From contig NZ_BMCH01000003.1 of assembly GCF_014635085.1 (NCBI RefSeq), positions 248,001 through 312,000 on the forward strand: a stretch of 64,000 bases of DNA, read 5' to 3'. A program made the position numbers and the translations under genes. Origin of the DNA: Asaia siamensis. Lineage in GTDB: Bacteria; Pseudomonadota; Alphaproteobacteria; Acetobacterales; Acetobacteraceae. Positions 2,826 through 53,506 of the stretch are shown in pieces (position 1 is the stretch's first letter; each line of letters opens with the position of its first letter). The notes beneath the pieces were generated by a model. It ran no database searches and was not told the DNA's origin. It worked only from the letters and a program-made list of their open reading frames with translations.

Positions 2826-3242
2826 TCAAGCCTCCCCAATCCGGGTGATGAACTTGGTCTTGATCGGCAGCTTTGCTGCGCCAAGAGCCAGTGCCTCACG
2901 TGCCACTTCAGGCGGCACGCCTTCGATTTCAAACAGCACGCGGCCAGGCTTCACGCGGGCCACCCAGAACTCGGGCGAGCCCTTGCCGGAGCCCATTCGG
3001 ACTTCGGCAGGCTTCGTGGAAACCGGCAGATCCGGGAAAATCCGGATCCACACGCGACCTGCACGCTTCATGGCGCGGGTGATCGCGCGACGTGACGCTT
3101 CGATCTGGCGTGCCGTGATACGTTCGGGTTCGAGAGCCTTAAGGCCGAACGCGCCGAAATTCAACGTCGTTCCGCCCTTGGCCAACCCATGAATGCGGCC
3201 CTTGTGGGCCTTGCGAAACTTAGTCCGCTTCGGGGAAAGCAT
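2826..3242 (-). CDS. rplP: 50S ribosomal protein L16
   Basis: L16 lies near the A-site tRNA elbow and organises the peptidyl transferase region. The 138-residue product begins [19 protein letters not shown] and has the central [20 protein letters not shown], both standard L16 signatures at normal length. It follows rpsC in S10 operon order. Confidence 0.98.
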
Positions 3243-46761: not shown

Positions 46762-49359
46762 TCAGCCTGCCACCACGAAATTGACGATACGGTTCGGCAC
46801 GTGGATGCGCTTGACGATCCGCTTGCCTTCGAGCATCCGCGCCACATTGGGCTCAGCCTCGGCGAGAGGCAGGACCATATCAGAGGGCGCATCAGGCGGC
46901 ACCTGAATTGTGCCGCGCAGCTTGCCCATGATCTGGATACCAAGCGTGATGCTGTCGAGCGCGAGGAATTCCTCGAGCGCAACCGGCCAGGCACGTTCGA
47001 CAACCATCGCGCTTTCCGGCTCGAGCAGCGCCACCATTTCCTCGGCCAGATGGGGCATCATGGGCGCAATGAGAAGCGCCAGCGACATGGCGGCTTCGCG
47101 ACGGGCTGCACCGATCCCTTCCTCATCCGTTTTTTCGGCTTCGGAAAGCGCTGCGCTCAGCTCATGCAGACGGGCCACAGCCACATTGGGCGTGAACCCT
47201 TCCAGGGCTTCGGTCACGGCCTTGATGGTGCGATGCGTCGCCTGACGCAGGCTGCGCCCACCCTCGGCAAAAGCGGCACCCTGCGGTACCGAGACTGCAA
47301 CGGCCTGGACCAGACGATAGAGACGCTGGCCGAAACGGGCTGACGCCGCAACACCTGCCTCGGTCCATTCCATATCGCGTTCCGGCGGGCTGTCAGAAAG
47401 CACGAACCAGCGCGCCGTATCGGCGCCGAAACGCTCGATGATCGCGACCGGCGACACCGTATTACGCTTGGATTTGGACATCTTCTCGAGACGGCCAAGC
47501 TGTACCGGGCCGCCATTGTCACGGCGCACATAGCCATCGCCCGAACGCACGACATCTTCCGGGGCCAGCCAGCCATTCTCGTCGCGATAGCTCTCATGGG
47601 TGATCATGCCCTGGGTGAACAACCCGCCAAAAGGCTCGTCGAGATCGAGATGCCCCGTTTCATGCATGGCGCGCGTGAAGAAGCGCGCATAAAGCAGATG
47701 CAGAATCGCGTGTTCGATGCCGCCGATATACTGATCGACCGGCAGCCAGGAATTGGCTGCGATCGGGTCCGTCGGTGTCGAGGCATGAGGCGCCGTGAAC
47801 CGCGCAAAATACCAGGAGCTGTCGACGAACGTATCGAAGGTGTCGGTCTCGCGCCGCGCCGCGGCCCCGCATTGCGGGCAGGCGACATGTTTCCAACTCG
47901 GATGATGATCGAGCGGGTTGCCGGGGCGGTCGAACGTCACATCATCCGGCAGCTTGACCGGCAACTGGTCATCAGGCACCGGCACGGCGCCGCAGGACTC
48001 GCAATGCACGACGGGGATCGGGCAGCCCCAGTAACGCTGGCGCGAAATACCCCAGTCGCGCAGGCGCCAGTTCACGACTGAACGGCCAATGCCCATTCCT
48101 TCGAGGCGTTCGATGGCCTTGCGCTTGCCTTCTGCCGTGCTCAGCCCGTCGAGGAAGCCCGAATTGATCAGTGTGCCATCACCCGTGACGGCGGTCTTGC
48201 CGACGGTAAAGCTGCTTTCTTCCTGACCTGTCGGCAGGATGACAGGACGCACGGACAGATCATATTTACGGGCAAAATCGAGATCGCGCTGATCGCCGCA
48301 AGGGCAGCCGAATACGGCGCCCGTGCCGTAATCCATAAGCACGAAATTGGCGATCCAGACCGGCACCGTTTCGTCAGGGGCAAACGGGTTGCTGACGCGC
48401 AGCCCGGTATCGAAGCCACGCTTTTCGGCTGCTTCGATCGCCTCTTCAGACGTACCGAGGCGCTGGCACTCCTCAATAAACGCACGCGCGCCCTCATTAT
48501 CCTGCGCCACCTTCGCGGCAAGCGGATGATCTGCCGCAATGGCGACAAAGCTCATGCCGAAAAGGGTGTCGGGGCGTGTCGTGAAGACCTCGACAGAGTC
48601 CAGATCGACATCGAACCCTTCCGGCGGCGCATGGAGCGCAAAGCGCACGCGTGCGCCTTCCGAACGGCCGATCCAGCGTTCCTGCATGACGCGCACACGC
48701 GCAGGCCAGCGATCGAGCTTGTCCAGCCCTTCAAGCAGGGGGGCAGCAAAATCGGTGATCTTGAGGAACCACTGCGACAGGCGCTTCTTCTCGATCAGCG
48801 CGCCTGAACGCCAGCCGCGGCCATCGACCACCTGCTCATTGGCCAGCACCGTGTTGTCCACAGGGTCCCAGTTGACCGCCGATTCACGACGTTCGACCAG
48901 GCCCTTGCGCCACATATCGAGAAACAGCTTCTGCTGATGTCCGTAATATTCCGGCAGGCAGGTGGCGATTTCACGCTCCCAGTCCAGCGAGAAACCCAGG
49001 CGCTGCAACGTGCCACGCATGGCGGCGATGTTGTCGAGTGTCCACTGGCCAGGATGCACACCGCGTTCGCGCGCCGCATTCTCGGCAGGGAGACCGAACG
49101 CATCCCAGCCCATCGGATGCAGCACCGAGAAACCGCGCGCACGCTTGTAGCGGGCAACCACATCGCCAAGCGCATAGTTGCGCACATGGCCCATATGGAG
49201 CTGACCAGACGGATAGGGAAACATCTCGAGCACATAATATTTCGGCTTGTCGGCAGCGGGATGATCCTCCGCTGCAAAAGCGCGCGCGCTATCCCATCTG
49301 GCTTGCCATTTGGGCTCGGCCTTGTCGAAATCGTAGCCGAGTGTCTCTTGTTCCGTCAT
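46762..49359 (-). CDS. leuS: leucyl-tRNA synthetase
   Basis: Attaches leucine to tRNA-Leu in the cytoplasm. The 865-residue class I synthetase has HMGH at 55-58 ([11 protein letters not shown]), the editing domain with TTRPDTLFG, the KMSKS loop ([14 protein letters not shown]) and the anticodon-binding C-terminus. Normal length. It lies between a DUF3576 lipoprotein gene and lptE. Confidence 0.98.
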
Positions 49360-49407: not shown

Positions 49408-49941
49408 TTAATCCCGGTTGCCATTATCAGCACGAAGCTGACGCGCGCGGGCGAGAATACGGGTGGTGATGTCAGAGGTCGTGTTGGGCGCCACAGGGGT
49501 ATCGACCCATTCCGTGCCCTGCTTTTCCTGACGGAAAACCGAGACGCGCAGTGCATCGGAGCGCAGACGACGGTCAAGAATATAGGCCGCAATCTTGAAG
49601 CGCTCGTTGGTGCTGGCCGGCGGCTGATACCAGTCTGTCAGGATCACGCCACCATTGGCATCGGCCGATGCAAAGGGCATGAAAGACAGGGTATCGATCG
49701 CACCACGCCAGAGATAGGCATTCACGCCACCCTTGAGCTCGTCGTCACCGCCTGTCGCGCCACGATCAACGCCCAGAAGATGGTTGCGGGGCTGGGTCAG
49801 GCTGTCCGGATCGCGACCACCGCCACAGGCGCTTAGCGCCATCAGGGCGCAAAGCGGCAGAACGGGCAGAAACCGTCCCAGAGAGAGGGGCGCCCTGACA
49901 GGCGCATTGAGAGGGGCAATCGGCTGCAAACGAGGAGTCAT
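49408..49941 (-). CDS. DUF3576 lipoprotein
   Basis: ATG 49941 with AGGGACATC upstream gives 171 residues. A hydrophobic signal ends in the lipobox ALSA|C, followed by the DUF3576 core VNAYLWRGAIDTLSFMPFAS and ADANGGVILTDWY. The family is confined largely to alphaproteobacteria, where it commonly sits just upstream of leuS, as here. Function unknown. An envelope role is likely from the signal. Confidence 0.88.
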   Translation of the reverse strand: MTPRLQPIAPLNAPVRAPLSLGRFLPVLPLCALMALSACGGGRDPDSLTQPRNHLLGVDRGATGGDDELKGGVNAYLWRGAIDTLSFMPFASADANGGVILTDWYQPPASTNERFKIAAYILDRRLRSDALRVSVFRQEKQGTEWVDTPVAPNTTSDITTRILARARQLRADNGNRD

Positions 49942-50060
49942 GATGTCCCTATTAGACTGGCACTGGCCGCGTGTCGAAATCCCCGATCGCGATACCCGCG
50001 TCCGGCGCTGAAAACAGTTCATATCGCGCCCGCCCGGTCACGCCAAGCGGGGCAATAGCT

Positions 50061-52474: not shown

Positions 52475-52503
52475 TTGCCTAGCCTGCGTGCGGCCCCTAG
52501 AAT
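52475..52503 (+). promoter_or_regulatory. promoter of the split tRNA-Arg gene
   Basis: TTGCCT (52475-52480) and TAGAAT (52498-52503) are exactly 17 bases apart and end 10 bases before the first tRNA base. That is a good sigma-70-like match at the right distance to start transcription just ahead of the mature 5-prime end. Confidence 0.65.
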
Positions 52504-52513
52504 GGCTATGGTG

Positions 52514-52834
52514 GTCCGCGTAGCTCAGCAGGATAGAGCACAGGATTCCTAAAAATTGGGCGCCATGGTCGGAAACGTCATGGTGGATCTGCTCAAATTC
52601 GGGGAAAGCTCTGGCAATATGCCGTGCCAATCCCGAGCCAAGCGCTTCTCTGAAAAGAGCGGTGAAGGTGTAGAGACTGTACGGGCAGCGCCTGTCGTCC
52701 GGCTTGCCGGGCCATGGTGAAGAGACAGTCCAGACCACGAACGACAAGCCGGGCTCTCTGCCCGCCTGTCGGCGGCGAAAGCCGAAGTGGGATGAATCCT
52801 GGGGCCGTGGGTTCGAATCCCGCCGCGGACACCA
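52514..52834 (+). tRNA. tRNA-Arg(CCU), interrupted by a group I intron
   Basis: Exon 1 is 52514-52550 (37 nt) and exon 2 is 52795-52834 (40 nt, CCA encoded). Joined they give a 77-nt cloverleaf: acceptor GTCCGCG/CGCGGAC with discriminator A, D arm GCTC/GAGC, anticodon stem CAGGA/TCCTG with loop TTCCTAA (anticodon CCU), and T stem GTGGG/CCCGC with TTCGAAT loop. It reads the rare arginine codon AGG. Without splicing the anticodon loop cannot form, so the intron must be removed for function. Confidence 0.95.
52551..52794 (+). mobile_element. group I self-splicing intron in the tRNA-Arg anticodon loop
   Basis: 244 nt inserted after the third anticodon base, with U before the intron and G as its last base, as group I splicing requires. 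Helices found by eye: P1 CCU/GGG (52548-52550 with 52558-52560, U-G at the splice site), P2 52561-52567 with 52579-52585, P3 52589-52594 with 52683-52688, P4 52598-52603 with 52632-52637, P7 52675-52680 with 52725-52730 (guanosine-binding), P8 52697-52702 with 52707-52712. No open frame for an endonuclease. Group I introns interrupt tRNA-Arg(CCU) in Agrobacterium and tRNA-Ile in Azoarcus. Confidence 0.93.
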
Positions 52835-52907
52835 TTATTTCATGATCACCGCAAAATCCGGATCTTGCCTGACCGGCCCCTTTCGGGGCACTGACCGATG
52901 GCTGGCG

Positions 52908-53192
52908 TCAGAACGCGACCGCAGTCGTCTCCGGGGCAAACAGCGCGTGCAACAGCAATGCGATCAGAACGACCCCGATCAACACCCCGAAAAGACGTCC
53001 GAAGAGACGAAAAGAGCCCACGACAAGGAGGAGGAGCAGCAGGGCCAGAAGCGCCGTCTGCACCTGATGTGGGATGCCCAGCGCAACAAGGCCTCTTCTG
53101 GCCGCCTCTTCGATTACGGCGATCACGGAAACGATCAGGGTAAACAGCCCCAGAATCAGGCCGACCACCACCGAGATTGCATTCTGGATCAC
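52908..53192 (-). CDS. small hydrophobic membrane protein
   Basis: 94 residues from GTG 53192, supported by GGAGGG eight bases upstream. Three hydrophobic segments: 5-27, 45-58 and 64-86, separated by short charged turns (EEAARR and FRLFGRLF). No motif or family recognised. The opposite-strand open frame across it begins inside the intron-tRNA and is rejected. Its stop lies 73 bases from the tRNA 3-prime end. Confidence 0.7.
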   Translation of the reverse strand: MIQNAISVVVGLILGLFTLIVSVIAVIEEAARRGLVALGIPHQVQTALLALLLLLLVVGSFRLFGRLFGVLIGVVLIALLLHALFAPETTAVAF

Positions 53193-53506
53193 GCTATTAC
53201 CCTCCGACGCGGCCCGACCGCTGTGTTGCCACGCTTGGTGTTCATATTACCGAGATCGTTCCCCCTCACAACGCGCCATTTGCTTGCAGCCCTGAAAACC
53301 GCTGCAAACCACCATGTCACCATCGACCCGTTCCGCGAGCGTCATTTGATATACTGTGACGTAATGGCCTAGACCATGAGCCATCGGGAGCCCCTGCCAG
53401 ACCGGACAGGGTTGCCCGATGGGCTGTTTCCCGATCTGCGCCGCAATAGCGTATTGTCTGGCGGATCAGTTTAAGGCCCGGTCTTCAGGAAGGAAGAAAC
53501 ATCACC
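53193..53506. other. divergent intergenic region with a long hairpin
   Basis: No gene is seen. The main structure is a stem-loop at 53381-53422: CCATCGGG pairs with CCCGATGG, and inside it CCCTG pairs with CAGGG around a ten-base loop, 84 bases before the symporter start. TATACT at 53350-53355 is a possible -10 box without a good -35. AGGAAGGAAG before 53507 is the symporter ribosome site. Confidence 0.5.

Follow-up and report, generated by a model that had tools for sequence, protein, structure and literature searches.

Background

Group I introns of tRNA genes are listed for cyanobacteria and for alpha- and beta-proteobacteria in a passage of PMC4033280. Cyanobacteria are also treated in PMC5733544, and the review PMC3984707 covers the distribution and splicing of group I introns. 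For acetic acid bacteria, a footnote to Table 1 of PMC4596401 records one tRNA (Arg) split by a sequence homologous to group I introns in Asaia bogorensis NBRC 16594, Acetobacter pasteurianus, Gluconobacter oxydans, Gluconacetobacter diazotrophicus and a further vinegar isolate, probably Komagataeibacter medellinensis. The tRNA amino acid and the bacterial family are those of the locus described here. The footnote itself gives no anticodon, insertion site, structure or history, and the present locus comes from another Asaia-like genome. Split tRNA-Arg genes in acetic acid bacteria are a kind already published.

BbgpI, the intron of the Bartonella bacilliformis tRNA-Arg(CCU) gene, splices both in vitro and in vivo according to the part of PMC7717549 that deals with it. 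It shares with the present intron the tRNA, the insertion between CCT repeats and the helix plan, but its splicing has been demonstrated, whereas that of the intron reported here is predicted. The B. bacilliformis sequence (L176) is included in our alignment. Introns in the tRNA-Arg(CCU) genes of Agrobacterium and related alpha-purple bacteria were reportedly treated by Paquin et al. in 1999 (J Bacteriol 181:1049), a study cited in PMC7717549. Its title names a sporadic distribution, horizontal transmission and transposition, which agrees with the present findings. The Azoarcus pre-tRNA-Ile(CAU) intron presumably resembles the intron below in its small size, its short P1 and the GAAA-type loops that close P2 and P9, although it occupies another tRNA in a betaproteobacterium. 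Our intron presumably resembles the Azoarcus and cyanobacterial tRNA introns, which bears on an assignment to subgroup IC3.

A tRNA-Arg(CCU) gene interrupted after its anticodon

The window, that is, the whole 64-kb stretch of DNA analysed, contains at 52514-52834 a tRNA-Arg(CCU) gene with a group I intron. We are highly confident in the fuller reading, in which this gene of an Asaia-like bacterium is interrupted by an endonuclease-free and putatively self-splicing member of that class. The interruption lies between U36 and A37, as located by ARAGORN with introns and by the Rfam model RF00028. The features of the locus and its surroundings are as follows.

46762..49359, minus strand: ORF that we take to be leuS from its sequence; a locus marker in many acetic acid bacteria, as judged from relatives
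49408..50022, minus strand: gene for a DUF3576 protein (Pfam PF12100), a conserved neighbour in relatives
52475..52503, plus strand: promoter-like TTGCCT, 17 nt, TAGAAT, placed 10 nt upstream of the tRNA; a consensus match only
52514..52550, plus strand: 5' exon of tRNA-Arg(CCU), ending at U36, the third anticodon base (ARAGORN -i and sequence)
52551..52794, plus strand: group I intron of 244 nt with a terminal G (RF00028, ARAGORN -i and covariation)
52795..52834, plus strand: 3' exon of tRNA-Arg(CCU), including the encoded CCA (ARAGORN -i)

With its intron option, ARAGORN reports tRNA-Arg(cct) of 77 bases with a 244-nt intron ('ttcct-Intron-aatcc'). Once 52551-52794 are removed, the acceptor, D, anticodon and T stems are all complete. 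RF00028 (Intron_gpI) matches at 52540-52753 over model positions 1-253 with 53.8 bits (E 7.3e-11), above the cut-off of 50, and is the sole Rfam family above its gathering score in the window. The initial annotation had described a tRNA cut directly 3' of the anticodon by a 244-nt insert ending in G; its coordinates are exact, and the Rfam model confirms the class. The length of the insert, too short for a usual homing endonuclease, agrees with the endonuclease-free state claimed at the same time. Promoter-like consensus matches number 2 in the stretch, against 0.3 expected.

Such a gene was also expected to be missed by standard tools or to be called as a 668-bp gene. The first holds for ARAGORN, which without the intron option finds no tRNA in the window, and tRNAscan-SE 2.0 is not designed to detect such introns, as stated in a section of its own paper (PMC8450103). 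A mechanical ORF at 52704-53372 (669 bp including the stop) corresponds to the second case.

Fold of the intron and its covariation

The window intron was aligned with 60 other tRNA-Arg(CCU) introns from Acetobacteraceae, Bartonella, Candidatus Tokpelaia, Aureimonas and Rhodobacterales. This alignment (A1) omits ten family and three named sequences of 73 references, the long intron of L082 having been set aside earlier. The helices P1, P2, P3, P4, P7 and P8, originally proposed from the letters of the window, are all present, and P5, P5a, P6 and P9 with its sub-helices can be drawn as well:

52548-52550 (CCU) with the guide 52558-52560 (GGG), plus strand: P1, with a U-G wobble at the 5' splice site; unchanged in 61/61
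52555..52557, plus strand: P10 guide AUU, complementary to AAU of the 3' exon (52795-52797), proposed from sequence and alignment
52561..52585, plus strand: P2 hairpin with a GAAA-type loop; 98.1% of cells paired, two-sided changes in 5/7 pairs
52589-52594 with 52683-52688, plus strand: P3; 100% paired, two-sided changes in 3/6 pairs
52599-52603/52632-52636, plus strand: P4, within the P4-P5-P6 domain (52599..52669); 100% paired, invariant
52608-52609/52626-52627, plus strand: P5, with P5a; 84.4% of cells paired
52637-52639/52667-52669, plus strand: P6, with P6a; P6 100% paired, invariant
52675-52680 with 52725-52730, plus strand: P7, the guanosine-binding helix; 89.3% of cells paired, 5/6 pairs invariant in all 61
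52690..52718, plus strand: P8 (52690-52692/52716-52718) and its hairpin; 100% and 87.1% of cells paired
52735..52790, plus strand: P9 with sub-helices and a GAAA loop; 99.6%, 95.9% and 100% of cells paired

Over the drawn helices P1 to P9, standard pairs occupy 92.1% of the 3596 cells of the 61 sequences, while a shift of the partner strand by 1-3 columns lowers pairing to 31.3-41.9%. Two-sided change occurs at least once in 35/61 pairs. Two-sided compensating cells number 448 against 151.2 (sd 10.3) in shuffles, none of the 500 shuffles being as high. Most helices are thus backed by covariation over 61 sequences, and a chance fold is ruled out by it. P1, P4 and P6 show no variation and P7 almost none, which means that covariation gives no test of these four helices. 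The core that defines group I introns (P3-P8, P4-P6, P7) is nevertheless found throughout, with P3, P4, P6, P8 and P9 paired in 99.6-100% of cells. The splice-site bases also follow the class, since the U of the 5' exon is paired with the guide G in 61/61 and the terminal G is invariant. Other elements vary: P6a as drawn is paired in 44.7% of cells, the sixth pair of P7 (52680 with 52725) is paired in 22/61 rows and unpaired in 39/61, and P10, of 3 pairs, loses its middle pair in 5/61 rows (base C; guide ACTGGGC).

Predicted splicing and decoding of AGG

This small RNA intron is probably self-splicing. From the standard group I mechanism we infer the splicing chemistry in the species of the window and the use of its tRNA. 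The CCU of the 5' exon would pair with the guide GGG to form P1, and a guanosine held in P7 would attack the U-G splice site. The released 5' exon would then attack after the terminal G, where the 3' exon AAU would be paired with AUU in P10. The outcome would be an intact anticodon loop.

The draft genome (3,315,768 bases, 18 contigs) has 1 RF00028 match and 49 tRNA matches. None of these 49 tRNAs of the draft, all read with ARAGORN, carries the anticodon CCU; the Arg anticodons among them are UCU, CCG and ACG (twice). Searched against the genome, the exon join is matched over its full length only by its own two separate halves; six further hits are partial and 75-96% identical. An intact second tRNA-Arg(CCU), which could make the split gene a pseudogene, was therefore found in this draft neither among the tRNAs nor with the exon join. 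Genes for tRNA-Ala(UGC) and tRNA-Ile(GAU) usually lie inside rRNA operons. Neither anticodon occurs among the 49 tRNAs of the draft, which thus misses some repeats and might still hide a CCU copy.

AGG is a rare codon, as had been assumed: in 33 ORFs of the window, of at least 600 nt and picked by length and GC3, it accounts for 43 of 15,036 codons (3.7% of Arg). The further suggestion that splicing could limit the decoding of AGG is weakened by the presence of tRNA-Arg(UCU) in the genome (L005). By established wobble rules this tRNA can in principle read AGG, and splicing need not limit decoding.

The same tRNA-Arg(UCU) is what might make a dead, non-splicing remnant tolerable, with the CCU gene lost to function and AGG read by the UCU tRNA alone. 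We give this reading very little credence, because the exons form a perfect tRNA in ARAGORN, the helices are maintained by compensating changes over 61 sequences, P1 and the splice-site bases are invariant, and not one of the 92 family genomes with a split gene has the exact unsplit junction as well. A pseudogene was rejected on the covariation and the absence of an unsplit copy.

Distribution of split and unsplit genes

RF00028 matches are present in 9/9 genomes of the genus, above the cut-off in 1/9. At E 0.001 they are found in at least 68 of 249 family genomes, a lower bound owing to the stricter filters applied. ARAGORN places 73 of the 74 RF00028 loci in an intron-bearing tRNA. The exception, L078 (G212), has a match of 49.6 bits at a contig end, and no intron-bearing tRNA was found around it. 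G087 (L091, L093) and G032 (L092, L118) are genomes with a pair of RF00028 matches, and every one of the four lies in a tRNA-like context.

By their exons, 56 of the family loci are tRNA-Arg(CCU). They include six that ARAGORN labels tRNA-His(atg), a label rejected on exon reading as the product of misplaced splice sites, and a locus of G002 (L060) split at the window's site. Introns of these loci range from 218 to 314 nt, a size at which a usual homing endonuclease would not fit. The longest, in L082 (G074), is a tRNA-Arg(CCU) intron with a long insertion before the guide sequence.

The scan of named taxa returned 82 stretches, of which 80 were examined, and 77 of these 80 (not L136, L144 and L145) are tRNA-Arg(CCU) genes split at the site of the window. 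They come from Asaia, Swaminathania, Komagataeibacter, Novacetimonas, Gluconacetobacter, Acetobacter, Commensalibacter, Bartonella, Candidatus Tokpelaia, Aureimonas and several Rhodobacterales. Insertion right after the CCU anticodon is thus common to the window, the 56 family loci and 77/80 named loci, family and named loci being partly from the same genomes. The comparison with other Acetobacteraceae proposed for the insertion site gives the same site in all 56. The nearest intron is that of Asaia platycodi (92% identical), and the six other named Asaia loci and Swaminathania are at 80-85%, which makes an Asaia species the most likely source of the window. Among 50,697 phage records, the window intron has no match at E 1e-5.

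A signature of exons plus guide identifies the split form in 92/249 family genomes and an exact unsplit junction is present in 66/249. No genome has both, and 91/249 have neither exact form. The signature undercounts split genes, as G074 is split (L082) without carrying it. Both states occur inside each of the genera g21, g50, g65, g69 and g77. Class-wide, the signature is found in 7 of 385 genomes, or 6 after L272 is dropped as a chance match lacking tRNA context; G302 and G596 lie outside the window's family.

Descent within the acetic acid bacteria and transfer between orders

Near the split tRNA, leuS and the DUF3576 gene are found in Asaia, Swaminathania, Komagataeibacter, Gluconacetobacter (L135), Novacetimonas and Commensalibacter. 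Neither was found at the 7 Acetobacter loci (L150, L154, L155, L178, L182, L184 and L191, one of them below 2 kb), and any of five neighbour proteins was found at only 48/154 loci searched. Over 18 taxa, intron distances track leuS distances (r = 0.889, none of 9999 permutations being as high), a value raised in part by two close clusters, one of Asaia and Swaminathania and one of Komagataeibacter and its relatives. In this leuS-locus group of acetic acid bacteria the intron has therefore been inherited with its locus, by vertical descent.

A branch with support 96/86 separates 105 tRNA-Arg(CCU) introns, the window included, from 17 introns of other tRNAs, and thus places the window in the alphaproteobacterial tRNA-Arg(CCU) intron family by common descent. 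Within the tree, Bartonella introns form a clade of their own (28 rows, 96/99), and an 18-row clade (100/99) unites Rhodobacterales, Aureimonas and six Acetobacteraceae genera. L116, from genus g69, groups with Gemmobacter (98/84), and in three g69 congeners the gene shows the exact unsplit junction. Being unrooted, the tree does not tell which way the lineage moved; its bootstrap is unsettled with 44/119 inner branches open, and the window falls in no starred set, so that the case for vertical descent is based on locus and distances.

On these comparisons, the intron lineage has moved between orders. The initial annotation had read the lack of a homing gene as vertical inheritance or loss of mobility. 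Vertical inheritance stands for the acetic acid bacteria with the leuS locus, from locus and distances, whereas immobility fails as a general rule in view of the cross-order clade (100/99).

A marker in the acceptor stem and the mode of spread

Split and unsplit genes differ at acceptor pair 5:68. Position 5 is a purine in 56/56 split family loci and in 77/77 named loci, the two sets sharing some genomes and three of the 77 being read with a one-base offset. Further split genes also carry a purine there (9/9 and 3/3, with L272 dropped). In 40 unsplit family genes, taken from 69 places with the exact anticodon-stem pattern and therefore sampling that stem alone, position 5 is C in 37, T in 2 and G in 1, hence a pyrimidine in 39/40. 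Class-wide, among the matches listed, a purine at this position occurs only in G000, G048, G129, G074, G302 and G596, all of them split. The single unsplit case with G5 is genus g30 (L274, L275), where both genomes inspected have leuS and the DUF3576 gene close to the tRNA gene; it is possibly an intron-bearing gene that has cleanly lost its intron. No mention of the 5:68 marker was met in the literature on such introns, in searches that were not aimed at it, and we do not claim that it is unpublished.

The opposition of purine and pyrimidine at position 5 suggests that the intron travels with the whole tRNA gene. It may be carried by a single lineage of tRNA-Arg(CCU) genes that is recognisable by a purine-pyrimidine 5:68 pair. 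Whole genes of this lineage would have replaced the unsplit genes already resident in several orders of alphaproteobacteria, and the intron would have been cleanly lost at least once, a reading that we hold to be evenly poised between right and wrong. Alternatively, the intron alone may insert into resident tRNA genes across orders, leaving the exons unrelated to its presence. Reverse splicing and homing are known routes for group I introns, and related introns do occur in other tRNAs of the family. Insertion of the intron alone nevertheless appears rather unlikely in view of the purine in all 56 and all 77 split loci of these overlapping sets against the pyrimidine in 39/40 unsplit genes. Moreover, split and unsplit congeners of g21 and g50 share some flanking sequence and yet differ at 5:68. 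In g21 the whole 157 nt of 3' flank available are 89% identical, and the 5' flank shows no similarity; in g50 a region of about 1 kb, whose end lies 176 nt upstream of the gene, is 78% identical to that of one of the two unsplit congeners. For the other genera, 49 nt are shared with one of three congeners in g69, 18 nt in inverted orientation in g65, and none in g77.

The acceptor difference might also reflect a folding constraint if an unsplit-type stem paired with P4 and disturbed the ribozyme. Duplexes of the unsplit-type 5' acceptor strands with the P4 strand are indeed the stronger ones (-8.6 and -11.6 against -4.5 to -7.2 kcal/mol). However, when 112 distinct precursors are folded with their own or with the flipped pair, in a pseudoknot-free model that does not treat P3 and P7 jointly, the mean P4 probability is 0.813 in both cases (lower in 6, higher in 2), and the competing pairing stays at 0.006, being higher in 5/112. 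A constraint of this kind seems distinctly improbable.

Related introns in other tRNAs and on plasmids

Several group I introns in other Acetobacteraceae tRNAs have a single solution in terms of loop geometry: Asn(GUU) in L063, Leu(CAA) in L074, Leu(UAA) in L075, L115 and L124, and Arg(UCU) in L127. The Thr(GGU) assignment of L092, L100 and L104 is the ARAGORN call among two to four possible frames, and L112 and L125 are Leu(UAA) or another frame. L091, L109, L113, L118, L121 and L122 are tRNA introns with no single identity by loop geometry. Six Leu-type loci form a clade (93/95).

DNA similar to the window intron (74-75% over two thirds of its length) is found in 1260 plasmid records and in 625/5426 E. 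coli genomes. In all three stretches opened, L128 (plasmid pCTX-M3, about 2935-3231), L129 and L273, it lies near aac(3)-II; it is covered by a hypothetical protein in L129 and has no annotation in the other two. The L128 segment scores 36.8 bits with RF00028, below the cut-off. In L128, 317 nt match a whole intron-bearing tRNA locus of Acetobacteraceae, probably Leu (L109), at 81%, a match that may hint at the origin of the plasmid segment.

Implications

The case described here is an ordinary one: the intron folds well, and both its family and its occurrence in the genus have been published. Where annotation takes no account of introns, such genomes will be listed as having no tRNA-Arg(CCU). 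The exons of the tRNA may serve as a marker to tell apart two ways in which tRNA introns lacking an endonuclease could spread, by themselves or together with the gene that hosts them.
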